A DNA stretch of 64,000 nt from Ereboglobus luteus (GTDB lineage Bacteria; Verrucomicrobiota; Verrucomicrobiia; Opitutales; Opitutaceae), in the NCBI RefSeq assembly GCF_003096195.1, contig NZ_CP023004.1, positions 4,072,501-4,136,500 on the forward strand, written 5' to 3'. Shown here in pieces: positions 14,643 through 46,903 of the stretch (positions are counted from its first letter, which is position 1; every line of letters starts with the position of its first letter). Under the pieces are notes generated by a model. It had not been told where the DNA came from and did not search any database. It saw only the letters and a list, made by a program, of their open reading frames with translations. The position numbers and the translations under genes were made by a program.

Positions 14643-14684
14643 CCAATTGGAGCTTTTCTGGTTTATCCTGTCACATTTTGAGGC

Positions 14685-14744
14685 AGGGCGAACCGTCTCG
14701 GTGAGCCGAGAATACTACGGCTCAGCCGGAGGCTTCGCCCTACC
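14685..14744. repeat. REP-like imperfect palindrome with GGCTTCGCCCTACC core
   Basis: Imperfect arms agggcgaaccgtctcggtga and its partner ending ggcttcgccct face each other around aatactacgg. The core ggcttcgccctacc recurs in the helicase gene (45997-46010, one base changed) and inverted in menC (41342-41355). A further sequence, ggggcgtcgcttgcgccgcc, about 45 bases later, resembles the ends of the 101-bp repeat. The gap otherwise holds nothing recognisable. Confidence 0.65.
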
Positions 14745-44167: not shown

Positions 44168-46837
44168 TCACTCGTGCCCCAGCCAATTCTTCAGGTCCTC
44201 GTCATTCGCAATCCGCAGGGACGCGCGGTATTCGGGCGCGAGAAGATCATGAAAACTTTTGTCGGAAAAGCGGCGGCAATGGAGAAGAACCTTGGTGTGC
44301 TGTCCCGGGGCGCGAACGAGGCGGCCCAGGGCTTGATTCACTTTTTGAATACCGGGGATTTGATAAACACGGCGCGCGGCCTCGTCGCGTCCGAGATTTG
44401 CATAGGCCGCGAGACGCGCGCGCTGGATCGGGTTCACCTCGGGGAGCGCGGGGCCGACGACCATCGCGTGCGAGATGCGGCCGCCGAGCAGGTCGATGCC
44501 CTCGGCGAAGCTGCTGCCAAGAACAAGAAGCACCACGCCGGGCGCTGAAAGGGATTGCTCCAGCCATGCGTTTTGCGCGGCAAGATCAGGGAGCTTGGGT
44601 TGCATCGAAACGCGAATCGCGGGATGCATATCGGCAAGCTCGCGTTGGATGGTTTCGGCATAGGCGTAGCTGGGAAAAAACACGGCCACGTTGCCGCCCG
44701 ACGCCGAGGCGAGCGAGGCGATGGTGGACGCAGTGGTTTCGGAAAACTGCGCGCGTTGCTGGTAGGTGGTGTTGACACGGGTGTCGATGGCAACGTCGTA
44801 GGCGTCGTCGCGCCAGGGCGTGGCGGCGCGGACGTAATGCGGCGCGGCGGTTGCGCGGGCTTCGTCGAGCGCGAGCAGATCCGCGGCGGAGGTGAGCTTG
44901 GCGAATAGTTGTTTTGTGTCGCGCTTGGTCAGCGCGCCAAGCTTATCGAGCTTGGGAGAAGAGGATGCCGGGCCGGGTTCCGGTGTTTCCGGCGAATCCA
45001 GTCCGCATGCGGCGGTGAAGTTTTCGACAGGAGTGAGGGTTGCCGAGGCGAGGATGACTCCGCCAAATTCGGCGATGGCCGGACCGATAGCGTCTGCTGC
45101 GTCAAGGCAGGTGATTACGAGGAGCGCGTTTTGCGGACTCCACCAAAGACGGGGAAGGTCGAGCGACGCAAGATCGGCGGCAAGCTCGGGAATCGACCAG
45201 AGCGTCTCGCTGATCCCGGCGGGCATTTGCGCGTAATCGAGCGGCGTGGCGGTGATTTGACCGGCAAGAGTGTCGATGAGTTCGCGAGCGTCGTCCTCGG
45301 TCGCGAGCGTGTGCGCGCCGTTTGCCTTGAGCGTGGAGAGAAAGTGGACCCAATGACTCCACGCGTTGGAAAGCGCCGAGGGAACCCGGACCATGTTGAA
45401 CCAACTGCCAACCGCGCGCGCATCGTCCGCGTAAAATGCATGGCTGAAAACATCGGCAACGCGCGACGGGAGATTGTGAGCCTCGTCAACGACGAGCAGC
45501 GTGCGCTCCGGATCGTAGCCGGGCTGCCCGGTAAAAATGCCGCGATTGGCCGGCGAAAAAATGTAATTGTAATCACCGATCCACACGTCGTTGAACGGAA
45601 GCGCGGCGCGGGAAATTTCGTAGGGGCAAATGCGCGCGTCGGCACCCGCGGCGCGAAGCGTGGCGATGTCGCGCGGATGATCTTCGACAAGATAAAAGCG
45701 CGACAGCCCGCTCTTCGGCCATCGAGTTTCGAGATCGTTGAGATAGGCGCAGGTGTCGCGCGTGCAGTTGTAAGCGGTGTTGATGCAATGCTCGCGCTTG
45801 GGGCGCATGAGCCAGGCGGTGACGGGCGTGGCACGGGCCGCCAGCTCGTCAGGGCGGGGATCGTGCGGCACAGGCATCCCGTCCGTGGAATCGGCGGCAA
45901 TGGGGATTGCGCACGCGGGAGCCACTGAGGGTTGAGATTCGATTTGGTGAAACGAACCCTCCGGGTGAGTCGCGTCGATAAACAGCTCACCCGGAGGGTT
46001 CGCCCTACCCTGGTCTGCCATATCCGCGAGAGTGCGCGTAACCTGGAGTTGTCCGGTGGCTTTGCTCGTGAGGTAAATGAGACGGTCAAAACGGCCCTCG
46101 CGCATGTGTGAAAGCGCGAGTTCGAGGAGAATGCCGGTTTTGCCGAAGCCAGTGGGCGCCTCGAAGAGAACAACCGGGTGTTCGGCAAGCGCGTCGGCAA
46201 GATCTCGCCCGGTCGTTTCCTGTCCGGGCCGGAGCGTGGCGAACGGCGAACGATAACGAAGACTGCGAAGACGCTCGCGGGCGCGAAGGCGAAGGTTGAG
46301 AAACTCGGTGACTCGCTCGAGTTGCGCGCGAAAAAGCGCGTCGTCGATTGCGGTGAGCGTGATCGTCTGGGCGAGTCCGCTGGCAACTTCGACGAAATGG
46401 AGCTCGGCGCGGATGCGCGGAGATTGGTTGCCGGTGTCCGCGAGGCGACGCAGCTCCGCGTAGGTGGCGAGCTGGACAAAGTAAGCGGGATACTCGGCGC
46501 GCAGCTCGGATTCGTCAGCGGGAATGGGACGCGTGACAGTTTTGATCTCGCGAAGGATGAGCGGCGTATTTTCGGTCGCGGGAATGAGCTGGTCGATGCG
46601 ACCGGTGAGCGTGAGTATCCAGCCGCGATGAACAATTTTCCCGGTGATGGGGATTTCGAATTGCGCGGCGGAGTTCTCGGATGCGATTTGCGCGCGGAGC
46701 TGGTTATGCCAGTGGGTGCCGAGTTGCGCGCGCCAGAGTCCGCTTGGCGCGCCGGACGCATCGCGCGGCCCGAGGGTGAAATCTGAAAGTTCACCCACGC
46801 TCAAGCTGGCGGTGCGTTGTTCGAGATCGAAATCCAT
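44168..46837 (-). CDS. Cas4/RecB-like nuclease fused to XPD/DinG-type helicase
   Basis: The 889-residue protein first shows a PD-(D/E)XK nuclease domain (Asp near 82 in GRIDQL, EIK near 95, QLATY near 120). A superfamily 2 Fe-S helicase follows: Walker A APTGFGKT near 230, four cysteines near 349-403 (CINTAYNC, TRDTC, ICPYE) for a 4Fe-4S cluster, VVDEAHN near 449, and C-terminal motifs with ALGRLVRAPGQ. Such fusions would unwind and cut DNA during repair. The ATG chosen lacks the 15-codon extension. A REP-like palindrome encodes about residues 279-295. The gene is single. Confidence 0.85.
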   Translation of the reverse strand: MDFDLEQRTASLSVGELSDFTLGPRDASGAPSGLWRAQLGTHWHNQLRAQIASENSAAQFEIPITGKIVHRGWILTLTGRIDQLIPATENTPLILREIKTVTRPIPADESELRAEYPAYFVQLATYAELRRLADTGNQSPRIRAELHFVEVASGLAQTITLTAIDDALFRAQLERVTEFLNLRLRARERLRSLRYRSPFATLRPGQETTGRDLADALAEHPVVLFEAPTGFGKTGILLELALSHMREGRFDRLIYLTSKATGQLQVTRTLADMADQGRANPPGELFIDATHPEGSFHQIESQPSVAPACAIPIAADSTDGMPVPHDPRPDELAARATPVTAWLMRPKREHCINTAYNCTRDTCAYLNDLETRWPKSGLSRFYLVEDHPRDIATLRAAGADARICPYEISRAALPFNDVWIGDYNYIFSPANRGIFTGQPGYDPERTLLVVDEAHNLPSRVADVFSHAFYADDARAVGSWFNMVRVPSALSNAWSHWVHFLSTLKANGAHTLATEDDARELIDTLAGQITATPLDYAQMPAGISETLWSIPELAADLASLDLPRLWWSPQNALLVITCLDAADAIGPAIAEFGGVILASATLTPVENFTAACGLDSPETPEPGPASSSPKLDKLGALTKRDTKQLFAKLTSAADLLALDEARATAAPHYVRAATPWRDDAYDVAIDTRVNTTYQQRAQFSETTASTIASLASASGGNVAVFFPSYAYAETIQRELADMHPAIRVSMQPKLPDLAAQNAWLEQSLSAPGVVLLVLGSSFAEGIDLLGGRISHAMVVGPALPEVNPIQRARLAAYANLGRDEAARRVYQIPGIQKVNQALGRLVRAPGQHTKVLLHCRRFSDKSFHDLLAPEYRASLRIANDEDLKNWLGHE
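45953..46010. repeat. REP-like element with perfect 17-bp inverted repeat inside the helicase gene
   Basis: cgaaccctccgggtgag (45953-45969) and ctcacccggagggttcg (45986-46002) are exact reverse complements with a 16-base loop. The right arm runs into the core gggttcgccctacc shared with the intergenic repeat near 14.7 kb. It stays in frame and encodes a 17-20 residue segment between Walker A and the Fe-S cysteines. Confidence 0.85.
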
Positions 46838-46903
46838 CGGAAAATGCGGAGTCCAAAATGCCGAATGCGGAACGACCGTCACGCAAGCGTGTTTTCAAAA
46901 AAG

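Follow-up and report, generated by a model that had tools for sequence, protein, structure and literature searches.

We find that a helicase gene of Ereboglobus luteus, located in the 64-kb stretch of DNA analyzed here (the window), contains a palindrome that is, judging from its sequence, the core of a GTAG-tagged REP doublet with REPIN layout. The best explanation for this palindrome, and in our estimation a highly probable one, is a REPIN insertion that was filtered by reading frame and is tolerated by a flexible linker of the helicase. This reading draws on the membership of the element in a dispersed family, its absence from other homologs, the uniform frame of intragenic copies, relaxed constraint, predicted disorder and the recurrence of unrelated palindromes in the same loop. 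The features concerned, by window position, are as follows.

44168-46882, minus strand: XPD/DinG-like Fe-S superfamily 2 helicase gene, 904 codons (open reading frame with DEAD_2 and Helicase_C_2)
45833-46009, minus strand: linker of 59 residues, predicted disordered (277-335 of the 889-residue form; AlphaFold pLDDT <50 and alignment)
45947-46008, minus strand: REP doublet (REPIN, or head-to-head GTAG dimer), 62 bp, in-frame insert (from family membership and length classes)
45947-46009, minus strand: REP doublet plus conserved preceding G
45985-46008, minus strand: intact left REP unit GTAGGGCGAACCCTCCGGGTGAGC, encoding (G)RANPPGE (exact match)
45947-45970, plus strand: degenerate right REP unit GTGAAACGAACCCTCCGGGTGAGT, GTAG end decayed (compared with the unit consensus)
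45953-45969: left arm of the inverted repeat, perfect 17 bp
45986-46002: right arm of the inverted repeat, perfect 17 bp
14683-14743: intergenic REP pair of the same family as the helicase copy, between convergent genes

A REP doublet within a helicase gene

The inverted repeat (CGAACCCTCCGGGTGAG/CTCACCCGGAGGGTTCG) has 17-bp arms that are 100% complementary and lie 16 nt apart. The predicted DNA fold of 45940-46020 has an energy of -24.7 kcal/mol, compared with a shuffled mean of -11.5 (z = -5.5; equaled by 0 of 200 shuffles), a stability that base composition alone would not predict. Together with the intact open reading frame, these values confirm the original prediction of a REP-like hairpin with an exact 17-bp stem, in frame in the helicase coding sequence and between Walker A and the Fe-S cysteines (Lys codon near 46141, first Fe-S Cys codon near 45787). 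The extent given there, 45953-46010 and approximately 17-20 residues, was correct as to location; the true element is slightly larger, with 62 bp (45947-46008) and approximately 21 residues. It consists of two inverted units that are separated by a 14-nt spacer and form a single hairpin. In the left unit, GTAG lies outside the stem and is followed by GGCGAACCC, an exact match; in the right unit it has decayed to GTGA. The encoded peptide is GRANPPGELFIDATHPEGSF, in which the right unit is read on the minus strand as THPEGSFH.

The host protein shares its fold and motifs with XPD/DinG Fe-S helicases, its closest folds being Finegoldia magna DinG (9kqh) and an archaeal (Thermoplasma) XPD. Translation probably starts at the ATG at 46837 (889 aa) instead of the GTG, since homologs align only from residue 14-16 of the 904-aa open reading frame. 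The GTG start would add 15 residues (VTVVPHSAFWTPHFP; 46838-46882) that are unaligned in most homologs and that resemble a short repeat, IPHSAFR, of the upstream intergenic region. In an AlphaFold model (mean pLDDT 77) based on ten aligned proteins, the disordered linker follows the motif Ia helix and precedes the strand that leads to the Fe-S cysteines. It opens with the REP residues (277-298; 21-22 residues), whose block-mean pLDDT values are 23-30. The model therefore agrees with the flexible loop that had been suggested, with the REP peptide at the head of a low-confidence segment (59 residues, pLDDT <50). A search of the E. luteus genome for helicase copies returned a single match and no paralog without the repeat.

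The element belongs to a dispersed GTAG-type family

The unit GTAGGGCGAA(C/G)C(C/G)TCC(C/G)G(C/G)TGAGC occurs 112 times in the E. luteus genome, and its reversed-pattern control 0 times. This degenerate pattern, which spans three stem variants in all the counts given here, has 121 copies in Ereboglobus sp. PH5-10 (our genome G003) and 27 in a third Ereboglobus, G001 (controls 0), with few or none in five other genera tried. G003 and PH5-10 were equated through helicase loci that align identically, and G001 was likewise matched by its helicase locus to an Ereboglobus reactor metagenome-assembled genome (MAG). At <=3 mismatches, the 24-mer GTAGGGCGAACCCTCCGGGTGAGC is found 90 times in the 4.17-Mb E. 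luteus genome and 0 times when read backwards; 18 copies are exact, including that in the helicase gene. The same threshold yields two matches in the window and none in 100 shuffles. The second window match is the REP pair at 14683-14743, in line with the earlier proposal that the palindrome shares a core with an intergenic repeat. Most of the 109 REP units in the loci we fetched lie outside predicted genes, and the approximately 40 doublets are mostly 61-62 bp long with their units head to head. The helicase element thus has the features of the GTAG REP superfamily: GTAG outside the stem, high and dispersed copy number, and a location mostly between genes.

REPINs are dispersed elements that pair two oppositely oriented REP units across a short spacer and fold into one hairpin; as a rule they lie outside genes and are linked to a RAYT gene. 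The Ereboglobus doublet shares the doublet form of REPINs (for which see Bertels and Rainey 2011, PMC3116915), but differs in having intragenic copies and in that no adjacent RAYT was found. By sequence layout the helicase element is a REPIN, with no REP-flanked RAYT gene found to go with it: none of the six Y1_Tnp genes in the genome lies near a unit (3-5.5 kb searched around each), and the one REP-like site in these regions has seven mismatches, which is at chance level. Mobilization would be by a RAYT/TnpA-REP-type transposase acting in trans.

Intragenic copies occupy a single reading frame

From the REP loci fetched from three Ereboglobus genomes, with genes called by a home-made codon-usage score and identified by Pfam and homology, we recovered approximately 17 distinct intragenic insertions. 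Hosts in DNA or RNA processing are the XPD/DinG-like helicase, RecF, Mfd, a UvrD/AddA-type helicase, an SNF2 helicase, HrpA and HsdM. Further hosts are MetH, MnmG (two sites), RsmA, HemH, penicillin amidase, an ABC-F type ATPase, a P-type ATPase, an AMP-ligase (at residue 9, the weakest case) and a 920-aa protein without a Pfam match. REP-less orthologs are available for AddA, RsmA, RecF, HemH and ABC-F, and in all of these except RsmA we saw insert-free homologs align again on both sides of the insert. The two insertions in MnmG (L072:1747-3900) belong to different stem subfamilies, have the same frame and are common to G003.

In ~17/17 intragenic copies the left unit is in phase 1, encoding G(R/S)A(N/K)(P/R)(P/S/Q)(G/A)(E/K) or a near variant. 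The second frame contains a TAG stop; the third (VGRTLRVS) is open, and we encountered it only close to the ends of genes. Under equal odds for the two stop-free phases, a 17 of 17 outcome in one frame has a probability of 2^-17 = 8e-6 (1.5e-5 without the N-terminal AMP-ligase case). Moreover, when the left unit is in phase 1, a doublet length of 1 mod 3 has the right unit read as the basic RLTRRVRP; such lengths make up 0/10 doublets in genes versus 16/31 elsewhere (Fisher p = 0.003). The left-unit peptide has a mean hydropathy of -1.7 in the surviving frame versus +0.16 in the open alternative. This uniformity across the genus supports the earlier suggestion that the insertion was kept because it stayed in frame. 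We propose that the helicase insert persists because the loop accepts a change in length and because its frame is the only one that both bypasses the TAG of the element and yields a hydrophilic peptide rich in Gly and Pro (GRANPPGE...HPEGS). Copies that landed in other frames or elsewhere would have been purged.

The uniform frame might instead stem from the insertion mechanism, through preference for a target, for instance GG or GAA at a codon boundary, with no selection on the peptide. Such a preference would account for the G that precedes the unit at base -1 in 81/82 units, and for the GAA codon after which the AddA, RecF, HrpA, ABC-F and MetH inserts come. However, the upstream bases are otherwise varied, and phase 0 units exist near gene ends, so the mechanism is able to place units in that phase. 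The absence from genes of the doublet-length class that gives the basic RLTRRVRP peptide also argues against it. We therefore consider target preference unlikely as the source of the uniform frame, although the bias could partly reflect it in place of selection.

The helicase insert is restricted to two species

An alignment of 33 sequences places the REP peptide only in the helicases of E. luteus and PH5-10; it is missing from that of the third Ereboglobus (G001, 73% identical), whose 20-residue linker lacks it, and from approximately 30 other homologs. The check on related genomes that had been proposed thus found the segment solely in two Ereboglobus species. At the REP site the linker has 4-6 residues in distant XPD/DinG homologs, whereas in Opitutaceae helicases the linker that follows motif Ia is long and variable (6 to 63 residues). 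The helicase insert has the sequence traits of a protein-coding palindromic element: it is in frame, the gene is otherwise intact and conserved, and orthologs exist without it. Most likely, the REPIN would have entered the gene in the common ancestor of E. luteus and PH5-10, after this ancestor split from the third Ereboglobus. No clean target-site duplication is readable at the insert-free sites because their flanks are too diverged or carry other repeats.

Relaxed constraint and repeated use of the same loop

For seven inserts common to E. luteus and G003, a simple site count gave a pN/pS of 0.60 (14 synonymous, 24 non-synonymous), versus 0.13 (188 synonymous, 77 non-synonymous; Fisher p = 7e-5) for flanking sequence limited to 300 codons per gene. 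On these counts constraint is relaxed, and the inserts appear to be tolerated more than used. This applies to the set of inserts; the helicase copy has one difference, a synonymous one, which is insufficient for a judgment on that copy. That difference is a C to T change in one arm of the PH5-10 insert, which leaves a G-T pair. The insert would thus be a neutral 21-residue spacer, with no sign of gained function and with presumed neutrality for helicase activity.

Comparison of linker sequences indicates that in other Opitutaceae the same helicase loop has independently received unrelated palindrome families. A GTMACCYAATAGGTKAC palindrome lies in frame in the helicase linkers of G011 (two copies), G024 and G057, all of them genomes in which it is dispersed. 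In G004, the linker contains a palindromic segment of 80 bp, which has 55 matches in that genome, the majority of them partial. Since the palindromes are unrelated, the site is tolerant and is not a specific target of the Ereboglobus REP. In addition, in the HrpA, MetH, SNF2 and RsmA loops, one Ereboglobus has a REP where another has different insertions. The HrpA loop (L221, L222, L170) bears a different, unrelated insertion in each of three Ereboglobus genomes and comprises only a few residues in other genera. We rejected a GA-rich palindrome in the linker of G019 as a dispersed family, as it had only five, weak matches. The helicase linker of an ErkenSummer Verrucomicrobia MAG (L048:2483-4972) contains AGCCAAAGTGTCACC/GGTGACACTTTGGCT, a perfect palindrome that belongs to a different dispersed family.

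These data bear on whether the REP peptide, or an mRNA or DNA hairpin, has been recruited to regulate or modify the helicase, possibly within a wider influence of REPs on genes for DNA processing. Many intragenic copies do lie in DNA/RNA processing genes; a similar remark on other species appears in PMC3733652, and the perfect stem is kept in E. luteus. Yet the shared inserts are under relaxed constraint, the T in one arm of the PH5-10 copy leaves only a G-T pair, and other genera have unrelated inserts or none at the same site, and we regard recruitment as very unlikely. A chance palindrome, in which needed residues happen to be encoded by an inverted repeat, would fit the open frame and intact gene but is refuted as a practically negligible possibility by the 112 unit copies in the genome, the 0 shuffle matches and the homologs outside the two Ereboglobus species, all of which lack the residues and encode a shorter or unrelated linker in place of the same sequence that a coincidence of coding would call for.

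Relation to known palindromic elements

The tolerated REPIN insertion that we favor has precedent. Intragenic GTAG REPs, most of them in Opitutus terrae, are described by Di Nocera et al. 2013 (PMC3733652), who also propose tolerance in flexible loops. The O. terrae elements resemble the Ereboglobus ones in their GTAG end, palindromic unit, head-to-head dimers and location mainly between genes, and in in-frame intragenic copies of 20-30 residues, many in DNA repair genes; the two hosts belong to the same bacterial family. The phenomenon is thus already published for O. terrae, and Ereboglobus adds another instance. Relative to the passages of that paper considered here, what is added is a different genus, the one-frame rule, the relaxed substitution rates and the use of one loop by unrelated palindrome families, none of which is reported there. 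Rickettsia palindromic elements (RPE) likewise occur in frame in many coding genes and are tolerated by the proteins (as summarized in PMC3733652); they differ in being CGTC-type or longer, in sequence and in belonging to an alphaproteobacterium.

In the close relatives studied here, a 'repetitive extragenic' element can be seen becoming protein, in one frame and in tolerant loops, followed by drift. The intragenic copies and insert-free relatives allow tests of both the frame rule and the suggested bias toward genes for DNA processing. Palindrome insertions in a tolerant loop would explain the genus-to-genus differences in the length and sequence of the Opitutaceae helicase linker. We speculate, as a distinctly doubtful generalization, that several unrelated palindromic families are a recurrent source of in-frame linkers in Opitutaceae, with one frame per family left by selection and a preference for DNA/RNA-processing proteins. 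If true, preferential decoration of such proteins could link repeat load to repair capacity.

Single REP units also occur at gene ends, in the other open frame and as VGRSLRLSRKR-stop, in L084:2529-5099 (E. luteus) and in L139:5144-10543 and L157:1-2514 (G003). There they encode the last residues of surface-type proteins, directly behind a stretch rich in Gly and a segment that resembles a transmembrane helix, suggesting that the REP supplies the basic tail of an apparent C-terminal sorting signal.
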